Of a stretch of 35,051 nt of DNA, positions 166-30,653 are shown one piece after another. This stretch comes from Gammaproteobacteria bacterium (GTDB taxonomy: Bacteria; Pseudomonadota; Gammaproteobacteria; QZLD01). The stretch covers positions 1 through 35,051 of the forward strand of contig QZLD01000188.1 of the NCBI GenBank assembly GCA_004796385.1, given 5' to 3'. The position numbers and the translations under genes are program-made. The notes beneath the pieces were generated by a model. It had not been told where the DNA came from, did not search any database, and was given only the letters and a program-made list of their open reading frames with translations. How positions within the stretch are numbered: the first letter of the stretch is position 1; each line of letters starts with the position of its first letter.

Positions 166-1044
166 ATGAACCAAAACGAACAAAACACAAGCATAGCAAC
201 AGATGACGAAATAGACCTAATAGAACTATTCAAAGTCTTCTGGGCACACAAGCTAATGATTGTAATCATCACAGCAATCTTTACAGCAGGTTCGGTTGCG
301 TACGCACTATATTTACCAAACATCTACACTGCAGAAGTTACCCTTGCACCAGTTAGTTCTGATGGTAATTCTTTATCTGGTGGGTTAGGTGCATTAGGAG
401 GGCTAGCTTCCCTAGCAGGTATCTCAACCTCAAGCGGAGGAGATACTGCTGCTAATATAGCAGTAATAAAATCCCGCCAATTCATAATGGAATTCATAAA
501 AGAAAATAATCTGTTGCCAATACTTTTTGCAGATGCATGGGATGCAGAAAATAAAAAGTGGTTTGTAGAAGATCAAAAACAGATCCCAACATTGCAAAAA
601 GGCTATGCCAAATTCTCAAATTATGTTTTAAGTATCTCTGAGAATAAAAAAACAGGATTAATGACCCTCAAAACAAGTTGGTATGATCCGGAGTTATCGG
701 CAAAGTGGGCTAATACAGTAGTCGAAAAGGCAAACTTATTTTTAAAGCAAAAAGCTATTGCTGAGGCAAACCAAAGTATTGCTTATCTAAAAGACCAAAT
801 AAATAATACAAGTGAAGTTGGTATTCAAGAATTGCTTTATAAGTTAATTGAAAAAGAACTGCAAACAACAAAACTTGCCAATGTTAGAAAGGAATATGCG
901 TTTAAAGTATTAGATCCTGCTCTAGTTCCAGAGTTAAAAAGTAAGCCGAAGAGGTTGTTGATTTGTGTGTTCGGTTCTATGTTGGGTTGCATTTTTTCTT
1001 GTATTTTAGTTTTGGTAGTAACTTTCAGAAAAAGATGCAGTTAA
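166..1044 (+). CDS. wzz: Wzz-type polysaccharide chain-length determinant protein
   Basis: N-terminal DDEIDLIELFKVFWAHK followed by a TM helix, then YTAEVTLAPV; C-terminal proline-rich segment and TM helix (VLDPALVPELKSKPKRLLICVFGSMLGCIFSC). Confidence 0.85.
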   Translation: MNQNEQNTSIATDDEIDLIELFKVFWAHKLMIVIITAIFTAGSVAYALYLPNIYTAEVTLAPVSSDGNSLSGGLGALGGLASLAGISTSSGGDTAANIAVIKSRQFIMEFIKENNLLPILFADAWDAENKKWFVEDQKQIPTLQKGYAKFSNYVLSISENKKTGLMTLKTSWYDPELSAKWANTVVEKANLFLKQKAIAEANQSIAYLKDQINNTSEVGIQELLYKLIEKELQTTKLANVRKEYAFKVLDPALVPELKSKPKRLLICVFGSMLGCIFSCILVLVVTFRKRCS

Positions 1045-1820
1045 AAAAATGGCTTTGGAAAGAATTATATTTTGATGGTGTTGATTTGAACGAATTTTGT
1101 TTGCAAGGTATGAATAGGTATATTCAACCGGATGTAGAATATGGAAATTCTATTGGTTTCTATTCCGCAAGTAAAGCAAAGGATTTGCCTTATTCAGCTC
1201 TGGTGAGCAAACCAAGTGGTTTTATTTGGAATGGGGCTTTAGAAAAGACATCCATATCGATAAAAGATAGTTTTTTTCTAAATAAAACAAAGCTTGATAG
1301 GAAATTGGAATTTAGTCTAAATGAAGAATCATTACTTTTTGATTTTGTAAGCCGATTTGTTGTAATAAGCAAAAATGAAAGGCCGGCTGAAATAGCAGGT
1401 CAGAAAGTCGAGCACAAAAGCAGCAATATATACCGTCAATATTCAGCATGTCATTCTGCAATAGTTCCAGTAGGAAATGATCTGTTATTGGAGTTTTCTA
1501 GCATTGGTGCAGAAATCCCTCCAGGGTTTGATGAGGTTTTTTATATAAGGGATGAATCTCAGAGAGCTGGCATATATCGTTGGATAGTTCATCATAGGCT
1601 AATTGTAAACCCGCTAAAGGCTAACTTAATTCTTCGTTGCTGCAACCCAAGATTTGAAGGTGTGGTGCCATGGCAGAAATTCATCCCAGGCCAGCTGAAG
1701 CGCCAATTATTTAGAATTAGAGAAAAGGCTTTGCCATCATTTCCATTTATGGTTGTCGGAGAAGTAAGCGTTTCTGCAGGTGCGGACGTGAAGCTCCATA
1801 CAAAAGTTGAAATTATATGA
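1035..1820 (+). CDS. Hypothetical protein, probably beta-rich; first gene of a three-gene module
   Basis: ORF listed from 963, but ATG at 1035 is the more likely start (10-bp overlap with wzz). No signal peptide seen. Contains DRKLEFSLNEESLLFDFVSRFVV, a beta-sandwich-like pattern. Confidence 0.6.
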   Translation: MQLKKWLWKELYFDGVDLNEFCLQGMNRYIQPDVEYGNSIGFYSASKAKDLPYSALVSKPSGFIWNGALEKTSISIKDSFFLNKTKLDRKLEFSLNEESLLFDFVSRFVVISKNERPAEIAGQKVEHKSSNIYRQYSACHSAIVPVGNDLLLEFSSIGAEIPPGFDEVFYIRDESQRAGIYRWIVHHRLIVNPLKANLILRCCNPRFEGVVPWQKFIPGQLKRQLFRIREKALPSFPFMVVGEVSVSAGADVKLHTKVEII

Positions 1821-2716
1821 GGTCATTAGAGTACAAAAAAAGCGCAAAGGAATTGCTGCAATATTTGAACTTTAAGTTGGATGCTATAGAGGGATTTCCT
1901 GATCAGCCAACGTGGGGTTATGCGTTTACATTGCTAGCAGCTTTACAATACGAAGCAGATTTGAATAAAAATGAATTAGCCCAAAAGGCTCTGGCGCTCT
2001 ATGAAAAGCAGTCAAAACCCCAAAAAATATTTTCATGGGAATTTACCACATTTGCAATTAATTTATCTGCTACTTTAACTAAGGAGCAAAGAATACTCGA
2101 TCTTTGTGCGTATAAAGCAAAAGGGACTAGAATGATTAACTGGGCGCTTTTGCGGCAGTTAAATAAGGTATATACAGGTAAAGATAGTATTGTTACGGGA
2201 TTTATATTAAGAATAATTAAGCTATTATTTACAACTTCAGATGGACAGATACTTGATGAGTTTTATACCAGGTCTTTACAATATCATGCCTTTTGCTTAT
2301 TTGTGCTAACGGAATTGGATAAAACCGGGCGATACCCTTGGGTTTCTGACTGGCTTATAAGAGGGTGTAGGTTTTCGAATAAGATGATATTAAATGATGG
2401 GACAGCACTTTATATTGGTAGGGGGCAAGAGCAGATATTTGGATATGGCGCGTTGATTTATGCTCTTGAATATGTTGATAAGCATTACAAGCAAAAGTTT
2501 GAGTCTTCAATTGAAAAGGTGTGGCATCATGTAAGTTCATTTCAACGAGAAGATGGGTCGTATCCTTTGGTTTTAAGGTCGTATCAGGCTGAACATGGCG
2601 ATATTTCATATGATTCTGATAAGCCGCATGGTTGGTATAGCTATAATACACTGTATGATTATCAGCCATTTTTGGCATATTGTTTGTTGATGGCGGCGAA
2701 TGAAAGTGAAAAATAA
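1817..2716 (+). CDS. Hypothetical protein, putative alpha/alpha-toroid fold (lyase/epimerase/glycosidase-like)
   Basis: ATGA overlap with the upstream gene. Helix-rich, with ILNDGTALYIGRGQEQIFGYGALIYALE, REDGSYPLVL and GWYSYNTLYDYQPFLAYCLL resembling toroid active-site repeats. No signal peptide. Confidence 0.6.
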   Translation: MRSLEYKKSAKELLQYLNFKLDAIEGFPDQPTWGYAFTLLAALQYEADLNKNELAQKALALYEKQSKPQKIFSWEFTTFAINLSATLTKEQRILDLCAYKAKGTRMINWALLRQLNKVYTGKDSIVTGFILRIIKLLFTTSDGQILDEFYTRSLQYHAFCLFVLTELDKTGRYPWVSDWLIRGCRFSNKMILNDGTALYIGRGQEQIFGYGALIYALEYVDKHYKQKFESSIEKVWHHVSSFQREDGSYPLVLRSYQAEHGDISYDSDKPHGWYSYNTLYDYQPFLAYCLLMAANESEK

Positions 2717-3383
2717 GCTAGCCCCGAATATTGTTCAGTTAGATTGTGGAGCTCAGGTTGTTTGGTGTACTCCTACAGGTGGATATGGTCACGTAGCTGA
2801 TGAGCAGCCAATGCCCTACATCCACTATAACGGACAACCTCTTACTCCTCGTTTTGGCGGAGAGGAGTCTGTGCGAAAATGCAGTAATATGTCGCTGCCC
2901 CTGCCTTATGGAAAACTTGCTAAGTGGCCAATAAGTCAAGAAATTTTCAATCTGCTGAGAAGAAGGGTGAATATTTATTGGCGAAATATAGTTAAGTCTT
3001 TCAACTCAAAAAAGCCATATTTTTTGTTTGCGGAACAGTTAAAATTCAAAAGAACAGAAAGTGGCTTTTCTGGCGAAAGTCCAATAATTAGTTTTGAAAG
3101 GCAATTTAGATATAATAAAACAGGCGTAGATGTTTATGATCGCATTGAATTTAAATGCTATTTAGAATTTAGCGAATTTTATTATGCCATGTGTCCAGAA
3201 ATTGTTACTCAATTGATAAGCTCACAAATTGAACTTTTACCAAGTGAATCTTCAAACTATAAGTTTAATATATCCGCATCAACAGGTGAAGCAGTGGTAA
3301 AATGTAAATTATTAAAGAGTATAAAATTTAAAGCAGGGGATATTTTGAAAGTTCATTATAATTACAGGATAAAAGGCGAGTAG
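2700..3383 (+). CDS. Hypothetical protein, beta-sandwich-like (heparinase II/III C-terminal-like pattern)
   Basis: 17-bp overlap with the upstream ORF. Contains ISFERQFRYNKTGVDVYDRIEFK. No signal peptide. Confidence 0.55.
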   Translation: MKVKNKLAPNIVQLDCGAQVVWCTPTGGYGHVADEQPMPYIHYNGQPLTPRFGGEESVRKCSNMSLPLPYGKLAKWPISQEIFNLLRRRVNIYWRNIVKSFNSKKPYFLFAEQLKFKRTESGFSGESPIISFERQFRYNKTGVDVYDRIEFKCYLEFSEFYYAMCPEIVTQLISSQIELLPSESSNYKFNISASTGEAVVKCKLLKSIKFKAGDILKVHYNYRIKGE

Positions 3384-3388
3384 TTAAG

Positions 3389-4651
3389 ATGAGTTTAAAA
3401 AAAGCCCTTAGCTACAGCGCGGTTGAATCGATTGGCTCGCGGGTATTTGATTTCATTACTCTATGGGTTGTATTGAATACATTGGAGACATCTGACCTTG
3501 CCAAGTTTGGATTGGCAACTTCAGCAATATTTATGTTTAATATGTTTCTTATGGCCCCTGAGACTGCGCTGTTTAAGTATCAAAAACAATGGGGGAAAAG
3601 CGGAGTATTAGAAAAATATTTAAGTGCGTTTGTTTCTTTTTCAGTATTTAAAATTTCGTTACATTACATTGCTGCTATTGTCGTTTTAATTGTAACGAAA
3701 GAGTTGAGCTGGGCATTTTATGCCGTAGTATTTTCTGCGATCACTCAGCAAATTCAGGCTGCCGAAATATCTCGGATATTTCATAGAATGGAGCTGAAAC
3801 AACGCAAGGTTGCTCATTTTGAAATAGTAAGCAAGGTAGCTTTAATGGCACTTTGCTTAGTTCTTTTTTTCAAAGCCTCTATAAAGATATATTTTGCAAT
3901 ATATTTTGGCTGGAGCTTTTTTGTTGCATTTTTATGGTTGTACAATCTAAATAGGACAAATGCATTTTCCATTGGTTTTTCATTGGAAAATGCAAGGCTT
4001 GTAAGGGATGCGTTATCTGGATATTCTTTTTGGACGCATATATCAGGGGTTATGACAGTATATATTTATAACGGTAGTCTATTATTTTTAGGCTGGCTGG
4101 GGACGCATGAAAATGACATAGCTTTATACACGGTAATAAATAAAGTTGCCAATCTGTTTTTCGTTATCCCAATGTTTTTTCAATCATTTGTGCCGGTTGT
4201 ATTAGCTAATTCTGGTATTGAATATCAAAGAAAATTCAATAAAGTGTTATTAGCCTCTGGCGCATTTTCTGTCGCTCAGTTCTTGTTTTTTCTTTTGTTT
4301 GGTCGTTTATTAGGACAGGTTTTTGGCTTAGAAACCCAAAGTGAAATTAATACTTTTTATGAATTGGGTTTGATAGCATCTTCAGGGATTCTAATATTAA
4401 ATGTGAGCAGACCTATTAGCACATATTTGTTAATTAAAAGCTCTCCTAAGCGGGTAATGTTATGCGTATTTATGCCTGCTGTACTTTTTGCAAGCCTTAT
4501 TTTTCCGGTCGCAATTAAAAAATGCGCCTTGATGGGCGCTGCATATGCTAGTGCATTTATTTATTTATTCGTGGCGGCTTTGCTGCTAATTCAATACATA
4601 CAAACCTTAAAGAAAAACCATGAAGATATCTGTTGTTATTCCAACGTATAA
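3389..4651 (+). CDS. Oligosaccharide flippase, Wzx-like (copy 1)
   Basis: About 420 aa with multiple hydrophobic helices and polysaccharide-transporter-like layout (MSLKKALSYSAVESIGSRVFDFITLWVVLNTL...). Confidence 0.75.
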   Translation: MSLKKALSYSAVESIGSRVFDFITLWVVLNTLETSDLAKFGLATSAIFMFNMFLMAPETALFKYQKQWGKSGVLEKYLSAFVSFSVFKISLHYIAAIVVLIVTKELSWAFYAVVFSAITQQIQAAEISRIFHRMELKQRKVAHFEIVSKVALMALCLVLFFKASIKIYFAIYFGWSFFVAFLWLYNLNRTNAFSIGFSLENARLVRDALSGYSFWTHISGVMTVYIYNGSLLFLGWLGTHENDIALYTVINKVANLFFVIPMFFQSFVPVVLANSGIEYQRKFNKVLLASGAFSVAQFLFFLLFGRLLGQVFGLETQSEINTFYELGLIASSGILILNVSRPISTYLLIKSSPKRVMLCVFMPAVLFASLIFPVAIKKCALMGAAYASAFIYLFVAALLLIQYIQTLKKNHEDICCYSNV

Positions 4652-5405
4652 ACGCCCAGATTTGTTAAATAGATTGTTAATTTCTATAAGGAAGCAAAGC
4701 TTGCAGCCTCAAGAGGTTGTAGTGGTTGATGACTGTTCTGGCATGAGCCAGGAATATAATGCTTGTATAGAGAAATTTTTGGATGAACAGTTTGCAGTAA
4801 AATATATTTGTTTAGAAAAAAATAGTGGTGCTCCGAAGGCAAGAAATACTGGTATATTGGCTGCAAAAAATGACTGGATAGCTTTGGTAGATGATGATGA
4901 TGAATGGATGCCGCAGAAACTTGAAAAACAAGCTTGTTTAGTTGACGCATCAAAAAATGAAAGGTTAGGCTTAGTATATACTTGGACGCATGCGAAGGGG
5001 GAAAAGGGTCAAGAATCATATGATAGCTGTATTTCAGTGAAAGGCAATGGGCGGCAAGCGTTATTGAAAACTAACTTTATTATGTCTGCCTCTGTGTTAG
5101 TGAAGAAAAAGGCTATTATTGAGGCGGGGTTGTTTGATTTACGTTTGCCAAGCTGCCAGGACTGGGATATGTGGACAAAAATAGCACTTACTGGATATGA
5201 GCTGGATGTGGTTGAGGAAATATTAACCATTTATCACCGGCATGGCGGAGAGTCTATCGGACTCTCTCCGAGAGCAAAACTGGGTTATCGTATGTTTTTA
5301 GAGGCCCATAAGTGGCAGATATTGAAAAATACAGGTCCACTGAATTGGATTAAGAAGTTTTGGTTGTATATAAATGTTTGGAGAGCAACTCAAGGTGTCA
5401 AATAA
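4620..5405 (+). CDS. Family 2 glycosyltransferase (GT-A)
   Basis: MKISVVIPTYKRPDLLNRLLISIRKQ, VVDDCS, NSGAPKARNTGI, ALVDDDDEW. Confidence 0.9.
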   Translation: MKISVVIPTYKRPDLLNRLLISIRKQSLQPQEVVVVDDCSGMSQEYNACIEKFLDEQFAVKYICLEKNSGAPKARNTGILAAKNDWIALVDDDDEWMPQKLEKQACLVDASKNERLGLVYTWTHAKGEKGQESYDSCISVKGNGRQALLKTNFIMSASVLVKKKAIIEAGLFDLRLPSCQDWDMWTKIALTGYELDVVEEILTIYHRHGGESIGLSPRAKLGYRMFLEAHKWQILKNTGPLNWIKKFWLYINVWRATQGVK

Positions 5406-5409
5406 GCAG

Positions 5410-6510
5410 ATGAAACTGTCGATTTTAACCAATATGGTAGCCCCTTATAGAGTTCCATTCTTCAAGGCTGTTGCAGGAAGCGATCAGGTATCCAAACTGG
5501 AAATACTAACCTGTGTTGGTCGGGAAGTTGACAGGCAATGGGATATTGAAAACGACAATAGTTATAAAGTGAAGAGGCTTGGGGGCATTACTCTTAATTT
5601 AAATAAGGGTACAGATGCAAAGCGTATATTACACTTTCGATTTGGTATTTTTATATCTTTGATTATTAGCCGTCCCGATATTTTGATTATTGGTGATGCT
5701 TCATGGACAAGTTTTCTTGGTGCATTAGCATGTAAATTGCTTGGTATTCGCTATGTGGTATGGAATGAGATTACTACCAGATCTAAAGTTTCTCATGGCA
5801 TTGCAGCTAAGTTAAGGCGGTGGATGTATAGAGGAGCTGCTAAATTAGTAGCATCCTGCCAGATGGCAAAAGACTTCTTGCTCGATAATGGAGTCCCAGA
5901 TTCAAAAATTGGTATTGTGAATAACGCCGTTGATAACGAGTATTATCTTGGAAAACGAGCTGAATTAGAGCCGCAAAGATCAAGATTACGAGATGACCTG
6001 GGTATAGGTGTGGATGCGTTTTGCTTTATTTATGTAGGGCAGTTAATATCCAGAAAAAGAGTGTTGGAAACGCTAGATTTAATTGCAAAAGTGTCTGAAC
6101 AAACGCCTGTTCATTTAATCGTAGCAGGAACCGGTCCGCTTGAAGGTGAGATGAAAAACAAAGCTAAAGAGGTAGGTTTTGAATCAATAAGTTTTTGTGG
6201 TTATGCTCAACCTGATCGTCTATGTGAGTTGTATGTAGCTAGTGATGCCTTGATTCTGTTATCCGAAGATGAGCCGTGGGGAATGGTGGTTAATGAGGCA
6301 CTGTTATTTGGTAAGCCATATCTTGTTAGTGATTCCGTTGCCGCAGGTGTTGAGTTGGTGGAAAAGTGCATTTCTTCATTGGTGATCAAAAGTGAAGGTC
6401 CGAATACATCTGATATACAGAAATTTATTGAGATGACTGCAGCTAAAGAAACTTCATTTGTACCTAACGGACCCATTCAAATGGCAGAAAATTTATTTCG
6501 TACTATATGA
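5410..6510 (+). CDS. Family 4 glycosyltransferase
   Basis: MKLSILTNMVAPYRVPFFKAV, FIYVGQLISRKRV, ALILLSEDEPWGMVVNEALLFGKP. ATG at 5410 preferred over the ORF start at 5374. Confidence 0.88.
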   Translation: MKLSILTNMVAPYRVPFFKAVAGSDQVSKLEILTCVGREVDRQWDIENDNSYKVKRLGGITLNLNKGTDAKRILHFRFGIFISLIISRPDILIIGDASWTSFLGALACKLLGIRYVVWNEITTRSKVSHGIAAKLRRWMYRGAAKLVASCQMAKDFLLDNGVPDSKIGIVNNAVDNEYYLGKRAELEPQRSRLRDDLGIGVDAFCFIYVGQLISRKRVLETLDLIAKVSEQTPVHLIVAGTGPLEGEMKNKAKEVGFESISFCGYAQPDRLCELYVASDALILLSEDEPWGMVVNEALLFGKPYLVSDSVAAGVELVEKCISSLVIKSEGPNTSDIQKFIEMTAAKETSFVPNGPIQMAENLFRTI

Positions 6511-9760: not shown

Positions 9761-10958
9761 GGAAAAATTTTTGGTGCTAACTCCGCGTTTTCCATTTCCT
9801 GTAATAGGAGGAGATAGATTAAGGATCTATTTCTTATGCAAAGAACTTAGTAAAGAATATGATTTAACCCTGTTAAGTTTATGTGAAACTCAAGAAGAAA
9901 TGGAGATGGATGTTTCATATGATAAGGTGTTTTCAAGGGTGGAGCGTGTTTTTCTGCCGAAATGGCGCTCTTATATTAACTGCCTATTATCATTGCCAAC
10001 AAAAAAACCGCTTCAGGTTGCTTATTATCACAGTATTCATTTTAAAAATAAAATTCATGAACTTTTGCCAGGGCATGCTGGGGGTTTAGCGCATTTGGTG
10101 CGCACAGGGGGTTATATTAAGAGTTTGGATATTCCAAAGTTCTTAGAGATGACCGATGCGATCTCTATGAATTATGAGCGGGTTGGCAAGGTTGCAAAAT
10201 CATCTGGTCTTAAGAATTTTGTTTATTCAATTGAGCAAAAGAGGCTTAAAGTCTATGAAGAACAAATTGCTAAAGATTTTGATTGCTCACTATTAGTTTC
10301 CCAAGTTGACAAGGATTACCTTTATAATCCTGGCAGCAGCGTATATTCAAAGGTTTTAGTTTGCTCAAATGGGGTTGATACTGATTCAATGATATATGAA
10401 TTACCGAAAAAGTCTAAGCAGCTAGTTTTTATTGGAAATTTATTTTCTGTTCAGAACCTTGATGCCGCTCTTTGGTTTTCAAATAATATAATGCCATTGT
10501 TGCGGCGTCATGGGGATTTTACTTTTAAGGTTATTGGTAGAATAAAAGATAAAGACAGGCAAAAATTTTCTGGTATAGATGGAGTGGTTTTGACTGGTGC
10601 TGTTGATTCGGTTGTTGCAGAAGCAAGAGATGCTTTGGCGGGTATTTGTTCTGTGCGATTAGGAGCTGGTGTGCAAAATAAGATATTAGAATATATGGCG
10701 CTGGGGCTGCCGGCTATTACTTCGTCTGTGGGGTTGGAGGGGCTAGAAGCTAAGCCTGATAAAGATATATTGGTTGCAAATGCCCCAGAAGAATACGTGG
10801 AAGTAATTTTAAGTTTGGCTAAGGATTACGAATTAACCAAAAAAATATCAACTAATGGTCGCAAATATGTTGAAACTTATCACTCTTGGCAAAGCCGAAT
10901 GGCTCCAGCAATAGACATGATAGGGAAAATATTAAAAGGTAAGAAGGAATTGAAATGA
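9750..10958 (+). CDS. GT-B glycosyltransferase resembling the TIGR03087 'EpsH1-associated' sugar transferase family
   Basis: [95 protein letters not shown]. Confidence 0.8.
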
Positions 10959-12121
10959 AAATTGCAGTTGCAGGTACCGGGTACGTTGGATTGTCGAATG
11001 CGGTCTTATTGGCTCAAAACAATGAAGTCGTTGCTGTTGACGTCATAGAAGAAAAAGTAAGATTAATCAATGATAGAAAATCTCCAATCGTAGATAAAGA
11101 AATCGAAGAGTTTCTGATAGAAAAGAGCCTTAATCTTAAAGCTACATTAAACATAGAAGAAGCTTACTCGGGAGCTGACTATACAATAATTGCCACACCA
11201 ACTGATTATGATCCTGAAACTAATTATTTTAATACATGCTCTGTCGAATCTGTTATAGGCGATGTATTAGATATCAACCCTAATGCTACAATGATTATTA
11301 AATCAACGGTACCCGTTGGGTATACAAAGCACGTAAAAGAGAAATTTAATTGTGAAAACATCATCTTTTCACCTGAATTTTTGCGTGAAGGCAAGGCTCT
11401 GTATGATAACTTATATCCTTCGCGCATAATTGTTGGAGAGAATTCTGAACGTGCAAGAGTTTTTGCAGACTTGCTTGCTGAAGGTGCAGTTAAAAAAGAC
11501 ATTCCCAAGCTATTCATAGAATCAACTGAAGCTGAAGCAGTTAAATTATTCTCTAATACCTATCTTGCAATGCGTGTTGCATATTTTAATGAGCTGGATA
11601 CCTATGCTGAAAAGCATGGCTTGGATACTCGTCAGATTATTGAGGGTGTTGGATTGGATCCCCGCATAGGCAACCACTACAACAACCCGTCGTTTGGGTA
11701 CGGTGGTTACTGTTTGCCTAAAGATACAAAACAGCTTTTAGCAAACTATCAAGAGGTTCCAAATAATATTATTCAGGCAATTGTGGATGCAAACACCACC
11801 AGAAAAGATCATATTGCCGATTCAATTATAGCCAAAAAACCTAAAGTGGTTGGTGTATACCGGCTGATAATGAAAGCGGGTTCTGATAACTTCCGAGCTT
11901 CCTCAATTCAGGGGATTATGAAGCGTGTTAAGGCAAAGGGGATAGAGGTTGTTGTATATGAGCCAGTTTTGCATGAGGAGGAGTTTTATAACTCGCGTGT
12001 AATTACTGATTTGGATGAGTTTAAACAGATTTCTGATGTTATTGTTTCAAATAGGCTTTCAGATGAAATAAAAGATGTGCAAGATAAAGTTTATACTCGT
12101 GATTTGTTTGGTAGTGATTAA
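10955..12121 (+). CDS. ugd: UDP-glucose 6-dehydrogenase-like nucleotide-sugar dehydrogenase
   Basis: [65 protein letters not shown]. Confidence 0.9.
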
Positions 12122-13626: not shown

Positions 13627-14661
13627 CTAAGTTTCTCCAGGTGCATAAATGGATGTGGCAGCAAAATATGCTACGAATAATAAAGCAAATGCAAGGAACA
13701 TAAGACTTTCGTTCAGATTGTAAATATGTCCTACTATGCCAATAAAAGCGCATGCCGTCGCTATGGTGTATATAGCTACAACGGATTTTCTTACGCTGAG
13801 CCCTTGGTCGATTAATATATGGTGAATATGGTCTCTTCCTGGGGTGAAGGGTGATGCGCCTCTTTTAATTCTGCGAATCATGGTTGAAAAAATATCAAGA
13901 AGTGGTACAGCAAATATCCATAGTGCGATTGCAGGGCGGATTATCTGGGTTTCTCCCTGAGTAAAAGATATCAGGAACCAGGCAATTATAAACCCAAGCA
14001 TCATGCTTCCAGAGTCACCTAGGAAAACAGATGCCCTTTTGTTCCAAGGAAATCTAAAGTTTAGCTGTAGAAAAGCAGCTACAGTACAGCTGAGAATTAT
14101 AATGAATGATAGTGGTGGGTCCATTTTGTTTATGTATGCAAGAATGCCTAAGCTGGAGAGCGTAATTAGTGTAAGCCCACCGGATAGGCCGTCGGCTCCA
14201 TCAGTCATGTTGTGAGCATTGATGCATCCACACACTGCGATTAAAGTAAGGGGGATGCTCAAGAAACCTAGGTCAATATCGCCTAAAAATAAGATGTCTC
14301 CAAATGAAGTTAATTTGTTATTCCCGAAGATGATCATAAGGAAACCAGCAAAAATCTGTATTGATAGCCTGTGCTTTACAGGTAGATTTTTTGCGTCGTC
14401 AATAGCTCCGACTAATAATAGCAGCCCTGATATTGTTACAAGTGGCAGGTAGTATTCAAATGATGAAGAACTATTTAGAGTAAATATAACAGTGCTAAAA
14501 AAAATGCCGAGTCCGCCAATAAGAGGGATGTCTCCCTGATGCCGCTTTCTGCCGCCGGGCGAATCAATTAAGCCAATATTTGAGGCAATTGGCTTTAGCA
14601 ACCATAGTAAGACTATAGTTGAAATAAAAGATGTAATGATTAGGGTGATATCTAGACCCAT
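13627..14661 (-). CDS. wecA: Polytopic phosphoglycosyl transferase, WecA/TagO-like (undecaprenyl-phosphate GlcNAc-1-phosphate transferase family)
   Basis: GLIDSPGGRKRHQGDIPLIGGLGIF, NAHNMTDGADGLSGGL, FLGDSGSMMLGF, GRDHIHHIL. CAT at 14659-14661 gives the likely start; the ORF extends to 14724. Confidence 0.88.
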   Translation of the reverse strand: MGLDITLIITSFISTIVLLWLLKPIASNIGLIDSPGGRKRHQGDIPLIGGLGIFFSTVIFTLNSSSSFEYYLPLVTISGLLLLVGAIDDAKNLPVKHRLSIQIFAGFLMIIFGNNKLTSFGDILFLGDIDLGFLSIPLTLIAVCGCINAHNMTDGADGLSGGLTLITLSSLGILAYINKMDPPLSFIIILSCTVAAFLQLNFRFPWNKRASVFLGDSGSMMLGFIIAWFLISFTQGETQIIRPAIALWIFAVPLLDIFSTMIRRIKRGASPFTPGRDHIHHILIDQGLSVRKSVVAIYTIATACAFIGIVGHIYNLNESLMFLAFALLFVAYFAATSIYAPGET

Positions 14662-14782
14662 ATTGCTAACGCCTTTCCTTTGCTGGAAGCTGTTCCCCAG
14701 TCCAAAATCACTAATATCTATCATGCCTGTAGCTACTAGCCAAGTAAGTATAGAATATTATTTGCGAATAATACATATTAAT

Positions 14783-18551: not shown

Positions 18552-19625
18552 ATGACTGTAATTATTGCTGAGGTTGGGGTAAATCATAATGGTAGCGAGA
18601 AACTTGCTTTTGAATTGGTTGATGCGGCTTATGATGCAGGGGCTGATGTAGTTAAGTTCCAAACATTTAAAACTGAAAATATGGTTACCGTTAGTGCGCA
18701 GCAAGCTGAATATCAAATAGAAAATACTGGGCAAAAAGAATCTCAGTTGGCTATGTTAAAGCGGCTTGAGTTAAGTAAAGATACCTATCATAAGTTGACG
18801 GATTATTGTTCTAAGATAGGGATTGAGTTTCTATCCACCCCTTTTGATTCTGAAAGCCTCGATTTTCTAGTAAATCAGCTTGGTATAAAGACTCTAAAAT
18901 TACCCTCTGGAGAGATCACTAACTTTCCGCTAGCTCTTGAATATGCTCGAACTGGCTGTAATATGATTGTTTCAACTGGTATGTCGACATTGGCTGAGGT
19001 TGAGGGAGTTTTGGGGGTGATTGCGTTTGGATACACTGCCGATAGCAATCAAAAACCAGGGGTTAAAGCCTTTCAAAATGCATTGATGTCCGAAAAAGGA
19101 AGGGAGGCTTTGCAGAACAAGGTGACTTTGCTTCACTGTACTACTGAGTACCCAGCACCTGTAAATGAAATTAATCTTTTAGCTATGGATACTCTTAAAA
19201 GAGAGTTTCATCTTCCTGTTGGATATTCCGATCATAGCTCTGGTATTGTTATACCAATTGCTGCAGTTGCCCGTGGCGCTGCGGTAATCGAAAAACACCT
19301 TACTTTGGACAGAAATATGGAGGGGCCAGACCATAAGGCCTCCATTGAGCCTAATGAACTAAAAGATATGGTTAAGGCGATACGAGATATTGAAGTGGCT
19401 CTGGGAAACGGGGTGAAAGAGCCATCTGAGTCTGAAATCAAGAATAAGGGTGTTGCCCGAAAAAGCCTTGTGGCTAAGCAACAGATAAAAGCCGGGGATA
19501 GGTTTGATACAGAAAACCTTGGAGTTAAAAGGCCAGGTAATGGAATAAGTCCTGCAAAGTATTGGAGTGTGCTTGGGGGGACTGCTAAAAGAAATTATGA
19601 GAAAGACGAGGTTATAATTGACTAG
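18552..19625 (+). CDS. legI: Nonulosonic acid synthase, LegI/NeuB-like (cassette 1)
   Basis: VIIAEVGVNHNGS, FQTFKTE, LKLPSGEITNFPL, LLHCTTEYPAP, GYSDHSSGI, EKHLTLDRNMEGPDHKAS, C-terminal SAF-like domain (KSLVAKQQIKAGD). Confidence 0.92.
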   Translation: MTVIIAEVGVNHNGSEKLAFELVDAAYDAGADVVKFQTFKTENMVTVSAQQAEYQIENTGQKESQLAMLKRLELSKDTYHKLTDYCSKIGIEFLSTPFDSESLDFLVNQLGIKTLKLPSGEITNFPLALEYARTGCNMIVSTGMSTLAEVEGVLGVIAFGYTADSNQKPGVKAFQNALMSEKGREALQNKVTLLHCTTEYPAPVNEINLLAMDTLKREFHLPVGYSDHSSGIVIPIAAVARGAAVIEKHLTLDRNMEGPDHKASIEPNELKDMVKAIRDIEVALGNGVKEPSESEIKNKGVARKSLVAKQQIKAGDRFDTENLGVKRPGNGISPAKYWSVLGGTAKRNYEKDEVIID

Positions 19626-25141: not shown

Positions 25142-26577
25142 TGTTAGTTAAGAACTTATCAAGCTTTCTTGTTGTTGGCTTTTTGCCTTATGCCGTCAAC
25201 TTCTTTTTACTGCCACTATATGCCAAATATTTAGAGAGTGATGATTTCGGTATTATTGGAATGATCACTATGTACATTGCGCTTTTTGGAGCATGGGCTG
25301 CTTTTCAAATTCCCTCTTCGGTTGGAAGGTTGTATTTTGAATATGAAGGGGATGAAAAAAAATCATTGTTCACCACAATTTTTCTAGGGGTGATCGCTTC
25401 ATCGATCATTTTTGTCGCAATATATATCGCTAATGCTGAGTTGCTGTCTTCAATGATGTTTAATGCGGATGGCGATTTTAGCAAATACATAATTCTTGGT
25501 AGCATATCTATTTTTCTAACTGGAATAAACCAGCTATGTGAAAGATGGATGGTTGTTCAGCAGCGAGGACCTTTATTATTGTTAAGAAGTTTGTGGGCAC
25601 AAGTCATAAATGTATCGGCAGGAATAATCTTGGTTATATATTTCAAGATGGGGGTTGCAGGTTTTCTTCTTGCGATGATAGCTTCACAATTAGTTGTATC
25701 AATTGCCTCTGTTTGGGTGCTAAGGGAATTGTTAACGCGCAATGTGTCTTTTGCTTTGTTTAAAGAGTCTTTTTTATTTTCATACCCCCTGGTTTTTCAT
25801 GCCCTAGGTGGAATCGTGTTTATGTACTCAAGTGTCTTTATAGTTGAGAAATTTTTGCCCCTGAGTGTTTTGGGGGTGTTTGTTATTGCAGAAAAGTATT
25901 CGCAGGTAATTAAGGTTATTGTTAACCAAGTAAACAAAGTGGTTATGCCATTTTTTACGAAAGTGGCAAAGCAATCAGAGATTGGGGCTTTATCAAAGAT
26001 GCAAATAATTATCTCGGTTTGGATGCTGATTATTTTGATGACTGTATTTGCATATACCGCAATGTGTTATTTCTTTATCCCAAAGTTCATGGGGCAGGAA
26101 TACTCACAGGCTCCTGTATTGGTTGCAATTCTTGTTATTGGGTACATATTTAGAGGGTTTTATTGCTTTTCAAGCGCGACTTTGTTTTATCGTAAATTAA
26201 CTAATAAAATACCCAAAATTACAGTTGCGGCAGGGGTGTTTTCGATAATATCTAATGTGCTGATGATTCCTGTGTTTGGAGTTTATGGGGCAGCACTTTC
26301 AACCGTACTATCTTTCTTTATAACGTATCTGTTGGCGGATTATCTTGCACCAAAGGACTTTAAAATAGTGTATGACTGGATGGAGATGGGAAAAATTACA
26401 CTACTTCTATCTGGCGTTTATATTGTAATTTTTTGGGGAGCTACCTATTTGCCGCCAGTTGCTGCTATGATATCTGTTGCTATTACTAGCCTACTTATAT
26501 TTTATTGTATTTGGAGTTTTGGCATGTTTGATTTTAAGGAAAAGGTTGAAGTGTTGAGGAATGAATATGCCAAATGA
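25138..26577 (+). CDS. Oligosaccharide flippase, Wzx-like (copy 2)
   Basis: NLSSFLVVGFLPYAVNFFLLPLYAKYLESDDFGIIGMITMYIALFGAWAAFQIPSSVGRLYFEYEG; polytopic, MATE/PST-like. Confidence 0.85.
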   Translation: MMLVKNLSSFLVVGFLPYAVNFFLLPLYAKYLESDDFGIIGMITMYIALFGAWAAFQIPSSVGRLYFEYEGDEKKSLFTTIFLGVIASSIIFVAIYIANAELLSSMMFNADGDFSKYIILGSISIFLTGINQLCERWMVVQQRGPLLLLRSLWAQVINVSAGIILVIYFKMGVAGFLLAMIASQLVVSIASVWVLRELLTRNVSFALFKESFLFSYPLVFHALGGIVFMYSSVFIVEKFLPLSVLGVFVIAEKYSQVIKVIVNQVNKVVMPFFTKVAKQSEIGALSKMQIIISVWMLIILMTVFAYTAMCYFFIPKFMGQEYSQAPVLVAILVIGYIFRGFYCFSSATLFYRKLTNKIPKITVAAGVFSIISNVLMIPVFGVYGAALSTVLSFFITYLLADYLAPKDFKIVYDWMEMGKITLLLSGVYIVIFWGATYLPPVAAMISVAITSLLIFYCIWSFGMFDFKEKVEVLRNEYAK

Positions 26578-27577
26578 TCATGTGTATATAATTGCGGAAG
26601 TTGGGCAGGCTCATGATGGTAGTTTGGGTATTTTGCATTCATATATTGATGCGATAGCTCAAACAGGGGTCGATGCAATAAAATTCCAAACCCATATTGC
26701 TGAGGCAGAAAGCAGTGAGTATGAACCTTTCAGGGTTAACTTTTCCTATGAAGATAAAACCAGATTTGATTACTGGAAAAGAGTGTCTTTTGATAGAGGG
26801 CAGTGGCTCGAAATAAAGCAGCACTGTAATCAGGTTGGACTGGACTTTATTAGCTCCCCATTTTCTATTGCGGCCGTTGAGTTGTTAGAGGGGATTGGGA
26901 TTGATAAATATAAAATTGGTTCTGGTGAAGTTAGTAATATGTTGATGTTGGAATTAATTGCTGAGACCAAAAAACCAGTTATATTATCAAGTGGCATGAG
27001 CTCTTATGCAGAACTTGATGCTGCAGTTGATCTTTTTAATCTTGATGATGGACTGCTGACGTTATTACAATGTACAACAAAGTATCCATCTGGCCCTGAA
27101 GATGTTGGCCTTAATGTGATTCAGGAGATGCGACAAAGATACGGCATCCCGGTTGGATTGTCGGATCATTCAGGGACAATCTACCCCAGTCTTGCGGCAG
27201 CAGCCCAAGGGGCCAATGCCCTTGAAGCGCATGTTGTTTTTGATAAAAGGATGTTTGGGCCAGATAGCGCATCGTCACTAACCGTTGATGAATTTAAAAT
27301 GTTGTCGGATGGAGTTAGATCAATTGAGAAGATGCATTCCTCTCCAGTTGATAAAAACGATAATCAGCAGTTTGCCGGGTTAAAGAAAATATTTGAAAAG
27401 TCGCTGGCTATAAACTGTGATTTAGATGCAGGTGAAGAAGTTAAACGTTATCATTTAGAGGCAAAAAAGCCTGCTGAAAAAGGGATACCTGCTTCAGAGT
27501 TTTCAAAGGTATTAGGTAAAAGGCTTATAGCATCTAAGAAGCAGTGGGATTTTATTAATTGGAGTGATTTTGAATAA
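26561..27577 (+). CDS. Nonulosonic acid synthase, NeuB family, divergent (cassette 2)
   Basis: VYIIAEVGQAHDGS, KFQTHIAEAE, KIGSGEVSN, LLQCTTKYPSGP, GLSDHSGT, EAHVVFDKRMFGPDSASSLTVDEFK. Confidence 0.85.
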   Translation: MNMPNDHVYIIAEVGQAHDGSLGILHSYIDAIAQTGVDAIKFQTHIAEAESSEYEPFRVNFSYEDKTRFDYWKRVSFDRGQWLEIKQHCNQVGLDFISSPFSIAAVELLEGIGIDKYKIGSGEVSNMLMLELIAETKKPVILSSGMSSYAELDAAVDLFNLDDGLLTLLQCTTKYPSGPEDVGLNVIQEMRQRYGIPVGLSDHSGTIYPSLAAAAQGANALEAHVVFDKRMFGPDSASSLTVDEFKMLSDGVRSIEKMHSSPVDKNDNQQFAGLKKIFEKSLAINCDLDAGEEVKRYHLEAKKPAEKGIPASEFSKVLGKRLIASKKQWDFINWSDFE

Positions 27578-29441: not shown

Positions 29442-30653
29442 ATGAAAGTTGATTTTTTATTCTTGGTTGAGCATGAAGATCGAGAGCTATCGGTAGTAAA
29501 AGAAATATGCAAACTTTTGCGAAACAAAGGGTTTAGTTCAGTTGTCCTATCTGCAGAGTTTCATTGTCACCTATTCAGGTGTTATAAACCGCAGTGCGTT
29601 GTATTCCCGTATGCGACTGACTCAGATAATTGGCTCGTTAAATTTTTTTCCGCAAAAAAAGACTCCCCAGCATTTGTAACATTAAATTGGGAACAGCTTC
29701 TTAGCAATGCTAATAAGGCATTTAAAAGGCCAAGGGGTGAATTGATTCAAAAGCATTTTTATCACTTGGCATGGAGTGATGATTTTAAAAGTTTCTTGGT
29801 TGAGTCTGGTGTTGCAAAAGAAAATGTTGAAGTGCTTGGTAATCCTGCTGTTGAGCTACTCTATAGAGCTTGTCAGAACAATGAATATTGGAATGGCAAA
29901 TTAAGAGATAGCTATTATATTGCTAAAGATAAAAAGATAGTCTTTTTACCTATGAACTATGGGTGGGCTTTTTTTAGTGATGGTAAAATAAAAGCTAAAA
30001 TAGAAATGGGGTATGATAAAAATGTTGCCTGGGAGTATCGAGATTATTCTCAAAAGTGTCTTAAGGCCTTTGTTGGTTTTATACATGAAGTTTCAAAGAA
30101 TACCTCTTTGCACTTGGTGATAAGGCCCCACCCATCTATATCGATTGAGCAGTATTTTGAAATATTTGATAATCAAGGGCATGATATCAGGAAGGTAAAT
30201 AATATTACTCTAACCAAAGAATATACAATAAAAGAGTGGATAGCAGCTTCTGATGTAGTCGGTAGTTCCTGGAGCACTTCAGTTTGGGATGCAGTCTGCA
30301 TTGGCAAAAATGGTTTTCTTTATACCCCGTATGACCGTCCAAAGTGGTTGGAAACGAGTTGGAATAATAAAGTTCCAAATATCGATAAAGCAGAAGACGT
30401 TGAGCAAGTTATGAGCGCTTCCTTGGAGCCAGAAGTTGCTCCTGATACCATAATTGGGTTTATATCTGAATGGCTGGTAGACATATCTTTAAAAGGTGTA
30501 CATGCGGAATTAAAGTCTAAGAATGAAGCAAGGCTGATCGGATATTTGGTGAGGAGCAGGTTAAGGGATATATCGATGAAGTATCTTGGTGGGTATAAGA
30601 TACAAAAGGGGCTTCAAAGAGATTACTTTGAGCCAATTGAATATTTAAGTTAG
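29442..30653 (+). CDS. GT-B-like surface-carbohydrate protein, candidate nonulosonate transferase (unassigned)
   Basis: LHLVIRPHPSISIEQYFEIF (HP motif), WIAASDVVGSSWSTSVWDAVCIGKNGFLYTP (S-S/T motif); directly after the cassette-2 neuA. Confidence 0.6.
   Translation: MKVDFLFLVEHEDRELSVVKEICKLLRNKGFSSVVLSAEFHCHLFRCYKPQCVVFPYATDSDNWLVKFFSAKKDSPAFVTLNWEQLLSNANKAFKRPRGELIQKHFYHLAWSDDFKSFLVESGVAKENVEVLGNPAVELLYRACQNNEYWNGKLRDSYYIAKDKKIVFLPMNYGWAFFSDGKIKAKIEMGYDKNVAWEYRDYSQKCLKAFVGFIHEVSKNTSLHLVIRPHPSISIEQYFEIFDNQGHDIRKVNNITLTKEYTIKEWIAASDVVGSSWSTSVWDAVCIGKNGFLYTPYDRPKWLETSWNNKVPNIDKAEDVEQVMSASLEPEVAPDTIIGFISEWLVDISLKGVHAELKSKNEARLIGYLVRSRLRDISMKYLGGYKIQKGLQRDYFEPIEYLS

Follow-up and report, generated by a model that had tools for sequence, protein, structure and literature searches.

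What do three overlapping genes contribute to a bacterial polysaccharide cluster, if they follow the chain-length determinant gene wzz and their products belong to no family in the databases searched? The question is raised by contig QZLD01000188.1 of assembly GCA_004796385.1 (Gammaproteobacteria bacterium, lineage QZLD01), whose 35,051 nucleotides are referred to as the window in the following. We designate the genes A, B and C (Table 1). A first-pass annotation, made from the letters of the DNA alone, had described them as three coupled open reading frames (ORFs) with an ATGA overlap between A and B and a 17-bp overlap between B and C; both overlaps are there, and the motifs it quoted are present in the translations. 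In our best reading, one enzyme consists of B and C as its two chains and has a fold composed of an α-helical toroid and an antiparallel β-sheet domain; A is its obligate partner. As to the reaction, we tentatively propose, with a probability of about 0.4, that the A-BC system would modify an acidic sugar of a lipid-linked unit in the manner of a C5-epimerase.

A 2026 paper counts a single identified D-glucuronyl C5-epimerase from bacteria, although sugars of the L-iduronate type are known in bacterial polysaccharides (PMC13308652). Conserved, unannotated, apparently cytoplasmic and core to a whole alphaproteobacterial family, A-BC is a concrete candidate for a C5-epimerase or for another step that precedes the flippase. 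As modelled here, the module would also show a two-domain enzyme laid out as two overlapping genes, together with an obligate partner, outside all database families searched.

A conserved module of two components

None of the three proteins has a match of any weight in Pfam, PHROGs or the PDB sequences, and their scores against NCBIfam are at noise level, far below the cut-offs. Deep profiles of the module proteins gave no useful match in these four collections either, and searches of plasmids, phages and viral contigs returned zero relatives of the module.

Relatives were found in two bacterial classes. In two other gammaproteobacterial genomes (G076 and G203), which are of a different family, A, B and C lie directly 3' of wzz, in the same order and with each frame open; the identities to the window are 40-42% for A, 52-53% for B and 41-48% for C. 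Given this recurrence, A, B and C are not chance ORFs. The G076 module region corresponds to WFXF01000049.1 (L006), a contig of a metagenome-assembled genome and the sole relative found in scans of genome contigs. There, the gene order wzz-A-B-C, transmembrane (TM) protein, glycosyltransferase family 2 (GT2) and family 4 (GT4) is retained across seven genes; the protein at the flippase position is 35% and the neighbouring GT2 57% identical to its counterpart in the window. G203 retains wzz-A-B-C-TM, except that one additional gene separates C from TM, and its contig ends soon after. An orthologue of wzz stands 5' of A in L006 as well as in L063. Within a class-wide sample, B is present in 3 of 369 genomes and is thus rare among the samples searched.

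The one other genome of the window's own family in the samples (G001, 82% complete) is without A-B-C. One of its contigs encodes a classical Hepar_II_III protein with no obvious export signal within a polysaccharide cluster (L091:8424-10106), and the same contig has a wzz gene (13757-14653) closely resembling that of the window. This protein and the A-B-C families may fill the same niche, possibly as functional replacements of each other.

The relationship between B and C becomes apparent in alphaproteobacteria, in which the B profile matched proteins with open frames of 520-570 amino acids (aa). At these loci, B and C are a single protein of about 500-540 aa, BC, and A is a separate gene just 5' of it. 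Window B aligns to the N-terminal half of the fused homologues; C alone recognizes the C-terminal part of some of them (E ~1e-4) and therefore represents the missing half. Fused BC was found in every one of 29 species from a family with a single genus, possibly Thalassospira, and in all five species from one genus in a second family, which makes 34 alphaproteobacterial genomes in all; the 31 other members of the second family yielded none. An A homologue accompanies BC in every one of the 34 and always overlaps it from upstream, by 16 bp in all 29 species of the first genus and by 14 bp in all five of the other. Most of the 29 species have a Shine-Dalgarno-like GGAGGT within the end of A. Strong matches to the A profile (2 of 385 alphaproteobacteria, 2 of 185 relatives) are confined to genomes that also have BC. 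This restriction and the fused relatives indicate that the module has two components, A and BC, the latter of which is split in the lineage of the window. The three genes are therefore co-conserved, as the first-pass annotation had proposed to check: A always occurs with BC or B-C, lies directly 5' of it in all relatives and is encoded on its own in every genome.

Since B and C are fused elsewhere, one might suspect a single broken gene that has decayed into three ORFs, and frameshift remnants had indeed been considered for this locus. The split is, however, clean. Its overlapping start and stop, a 4-bp ATGA in L006 and L005, are common to three genomes of two families at about 52% identity, and it is consequently old and under selection rather than an artefact of sequencing or decay. 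As A, moreover, stands on its own everywhere, we regard the broken-gene explanation as refuted.

Fused BC varies in length. Some representatives reach 614-627 aa (L053 9061-11004, L054 9201-11084) and carry a long proline-rich insert that lies between DG.LPL and GWYSYN, immediately ahead of the final helix of the toroid. Beside another A-BC locus lies a gene for a 2167-aa protein with tandem Asp/Gly-rich repeats of the calcium-binding type (L058:12580-19083).

The fold of B and C

For the fused alphaproteobacterial BC, AlphaFold2 (32 sequences) yields a model with a predicted local distance difference test score (pLDDT) of 89.5 and a predicted template modelling score (pTM) of 0.92, in which about twelve helices (residues 6-317) are followed by an antiparallel β domain (333-534). 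The best Foldseek matches of this model in the PDB are polysaccharide lyases (PL) of the families PL33, PL8, PL35 and PL15 and human dermatan-sulfate epimerase 1 (DS-epi1), with E-values from 2e-9 to 5e-5. They include xanthan and hyaluronate lyases, the PL35 GAGase VII (TMq 0.60), an alginate lyase of PL15 and DS-epi1 (6hzn, E 2.1e-6); among viral models, ODV-E66 proteins were matched. Both domains of the (α/α) toroid plus antiparallel β fold of uronate lyases and epimerases are thus found in fused BC. Both the conservation of the module as a unit and this lyase/DS-epimerase fold of BC are well supported, and we consider them very nearly certain.

Several proposals of the first-pass annotation can be judged against this model. 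Its assignment of an α-toroid to the middle protein, B, is borne out by the fused homologues, the model and its structural matches. Its idea of a heparinase-like toroid and β layout divided among three proteins holds for B and C as two chains; it is not supported for A, which is encoded separately everywhere and shows no profile similarity to C. The β pattern thought to be shared by A and C finds no support in a profile comparison with hhalign (probability 1.2%, 18 columns), and we rejected this relationship. A resemblance to D-glucuronyl C5-epimerase architecture was likewise not found, as BC is of the DS-epi1/PL type. Glce and the bacterial glucuronyl C5-epimerase (Bermanella) share with A-BC only the proposed chemistry: their order is β-hairpin, β-sandwich and C-terminal helices, whereas BC has the opposite order, toroid then β domain, and the Pfam domain C5-epim_C matches neither A, B and C nor fused BC.

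The closer relatives in structure differ from BC in instructive ways. With the PL33, PL8, PL35 and PL15 lyases, BC shares the two-domain fold, a tyrosine that starts a toroid helix and conserved toroid Asn, Arg and Trp residues; unlike them, it has no signal peptide, no β-domain histidine and no match at the sequence level, is encoded in a synthesis cluster, needs the partner A and, in the window, consists of two chains. DS-epi1 is of the same fold class and demonstrates that the fold can epimerize C5 of glucuronic acid without cutting (PMC8006597), yet it is a luminal single chain with a β-domain histidine and a manganese site (PMC8006597), and without a partner A. Hepar_II_III proteins (PF07940), such as the one in G001, are cytoplasmic-looking toroid plus β proteins from polysaccharide clusters, too. 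Their RSxMYHA motif resembles RSLQYHAF in B, and the hairpin of Hepar_II_III_C resembles one in C. They are, however, single chains with a β-domain HAHAD motif that is missing from BC, and the Pfam models (PF07940/PF16889) match neither A, B and C nor fused BC.

Candidate active-site residues

Known members of this fold employ a toroid Asn (or His) and a Tyr, 52-57 residues apart, together with a β-domain His (PMC12088678, PMC11848413, PMC8006597). Across 29 B-domain sequences, the invariant residues of B include E75, F76, N108, W109, D147, Q155, Y156, H157, R202, Q206, F208, W273, Y276, N277, D281 and Y282, as well as G201 and G203. In the C half, they include G53, the GGE motif (E55), R134 and the hairpin FERQFRY..VDVYDRIEF. 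Y156 is invariant in 29 of 29 sequences, and the likewise invariant N108 precedes it by 48 residues (50 in L061). In the best unprompted alignment of hidden Markov models to Hepar_II_III, which is weak and of low probability (P 0.014), TRSLQYHAF of B pairs with RSTMYHAL, that is, with the tyrosine motif MYH; a separate weak alignment (P 0.006) pairs the C hairpin with that of Hepar_II_III_C. The hhalign comparisons with nine PF07940 proteins, to which these alignments belong, revealed weak local similarity only. Judged from conservation and these alignments, Y156 is probably the catalytic tyrosine; the neutralizer could be N108, with which the preceding inner helix of the model begins. Another assignment, H157 with F208/Y210 as the Asn/Tyr pair of lyases, was dropped: Y210 is conserved in 8 of 29 sequences, compared with the invariant Y156 that aligns to the MYH tyrosine. 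With regard to the DS-epi1 triad His205-Tyr261-Tyr473, B has Y156/H157 in the toroid, a conserved β-domain histidine is absent, and no counterpart of Tyr473 was located.

A contributes its own set of invariant residues, namely E35, F42, D103, V105, R107, H127, Y133, F165, Y170, R172, D173, W183, H186, R188, R201 and E230 (27 homologues). From this pattern, a composite active site that uses the invariant Asp, Arg, His and Tyr residues of A appears possible.

Cellular location and pathway partners

In a Kyte-Doolittle scan, in which wzz, wzx and wzy served as positive controls and scored clearly, neither A, B and C nor their homologues show a signal peptide-like or TM segment, which extends to the homologues the absence of a visible signal peptide that the first-pass annotation had noted. 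At every locus read, the module lies among flippase-like, glycosyltransferase and Wzz genes. The natural conclusion from the lack of export signals and from this location is that A-BC would act in the cytoplasm, on a growing lipid-linked unit.

The partners within these pathways vary. We rejected the notion of a flippase or GT2 shared between the window and the one alphaproteobacterial locus tested, as neither window protein is detectably similar to its counterpart beside A-BC there. What the two have in common is A with BC and, in a loose sense, a GT4; A-BC therefore seems to join different pathways as one unit. Most of the alphaproteobacterial loci examined have a related GT4 in the vicinity of A-BC, and it may form the glycosidic bond adjoining the modified sugar. 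GT4s with an initial motif of the type TNxxPPYR/VPPYR are found at L058:4628-5791, L060:13402-14553 and L049:5943-7079, and in the window at 5374-6510.

The first-pass annotation had suggested ugd as the supply of a uronate. A dehydrogenase gene is indeed found near the module in the window, and a TviB-like nucleotide-sugar dehydrogenase is encoded at most about 4 kb from BC in 10 of 10 tested genomes of the first alphaproteobacterial genus. The linkage is not universal, as detailed below, and we rejected ugd as a required neighbour; the connection is weak, and a uronate substrate for A-BC is plausible.

The proposed reaction and its competitors

How could such a system work? On the inner side of the membrane and ahead of the flippase, A-BC would bind the oligosaccharide in its undecaprenyl-linked (or nascent) form and act at C5 of an acidic sugar via Y156 of B, next to H157. 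N108 and R202, together with E55 of C or residues of A, might substitute for the usual β-domain histidine. Inversion at C5, of the D- to L-uronate type, would be the most plausible outcome, rather than cutting, because cleavage at this stage would destroy the repeat unit under construction. Precedents support an epimerase: DS-epi1 for the fold, and, for C5 epimerization of a lipid-linked glycan, archaeal Agl32, a D-glucuronyl C5-epimerase that acts on a lipid-linked N-glycan before it crosses the membrane (PMC13308652). Agl32 resembles the proposed step in this respect and differs in architecture, being predicted as a single α-helical domain with no β domain (PMC13308652).

Several observations weigh against a C5 epimerase of this fold. 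The confident model is that of the alphaproteobacterial fused homologue, not of window B and C; window B alone (three sequences) was modelled as all helical at a pLDDT of 54.9, with insignificant Foldseek matches. Even for fused BC, most lyase matches reach no more than modest global TM-scores of 0.39-0.60, at a sequence identity of about 10%. In the C half, no histidine column reaches 60%, so the β-domain histidine of PL12, PL15, PL17, PL33 and DS-epi1 is missing, and the invariant E55 of the GGE motif stands instead. Lastly, the neighbourhood of the module lacks a nucleotide-sugar dehydrogenase gene in five genomes of the second alphaproteobacterial genus and in G076 and G203.

The incomplete lyase apparatus could also mean that A-BC is a non-catalytic pseudo-lyase for glycan binding or quality control, which recognizes the finished lipid-linked unit and passes it to the adjacent flippase; its position next to wzx-like, wzz and glycosyltransferase genes would suit this role. 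We consider it rather unlikely, as A and BC retain many invariant charged and aromatic residues, including the tyrosine aligned to that of the lyases, and as the dissimilarity of the flippases makes a dedicated flippase adaptor less likely. About equally improbable is that the lyase fold has been reused for some other modification of the lipid-linked unit, such as dehydration, isomerization or the transfer of a substituent. The invariant residues that A adds have no counterpart in known PL enzymes, and no database family matches, which would fit a different chemistry; on the other hand, no cofactor-binding motif was recognized, and no specific chemistry has direct evidence. Slightly less probable still is genuine cleavage: as a lyase (or hydrolase), A-BC would trim cytoplasmic oligosaccharides with uronate that are faulty or in excess. 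The nearest folds are in fact polysaccharide lyases, but export signals and the β-domain histidine are absent, and cutting within a synthesis cluster would oppose assembly.

The C5-epimerase proposal can be stated in a bolder form. A and BC may constitute an undescribed two-component bacterial family that epimerizes uronic acids in cytoplasmic lipid-linked units, in which A supplies part of the active site in trans, and whose toroid and β chains are separate in one lineage. As a whole, this version is doubtful.

Genomic surroundings in the window

The start of A overlaps the end of wzz (1044) by 10 bp. Downstream of C, the window encodes the flippase-like protein, the GT2 and the GT4, followed by a Wzy_C protein, three further GT4s, ugd and a mutase of the PGM/PMM type (Table 1).

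Table 1. The A-B-C module and neighbouring features in the window
Feature	Positions	Strand	Length and evidence	Assignment
wzz	166..1044	+	Pfam Wzz 1.8e-17, GNVR	polysaccharide chain-length determinant
gene A	1035..1820	+	ORF, ATG start, 261 aa	predicted cytoplasmic protein, putative obligate partner of B-C
A/B overlap	1817..1820	+	ATGA stop-start	translational coupling
gene B	1817..2716	+	ORF, 299 aa	α-toroid half of predicted lyase/epimerase-fold enzyme
B/C overlap	2700..2716	+	17 bp	junction where alphaproteobacterial homologues are fused
gene C	2700..3383	+	ORF, 227 aa	antiparallel β half, predicted to belong to same enzyme as B
flippase-like gene	3389..4651	+	no Pfam match	multi-TM protein (Wzx-like)
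GT2 gene	4620..5405	+	PF00535 9.7e-26	glycosyltransferase
GT4 gene	5374..6510	+		glycosyltransferase, TNxxxPYR type
ugd	10955..12121	+	PRK15057 4e-212; 7.5 kb downstream	UDP-glucose 6-dehydrogenase, possible uronate source

Between two sugar clusters, the minus strand encodes a WecA-like GlcNAc-1-phosphate transferase (13627-14724; 310.7 bits against the NCBIfam WecA cut-off of 326). A nonulosonic acid region further downstream contains a 403-aa ORF without a Pfam match (29442-30653). Two genes of the NeuB family (18552-19625 and 26561-27577) each have their own UDP-GlcNAc 2-epimerase-type and cytidylyltransferase genes (17372 and 22303; 27577 and 28722), which points to two nonulosonic acid pathways within one window.

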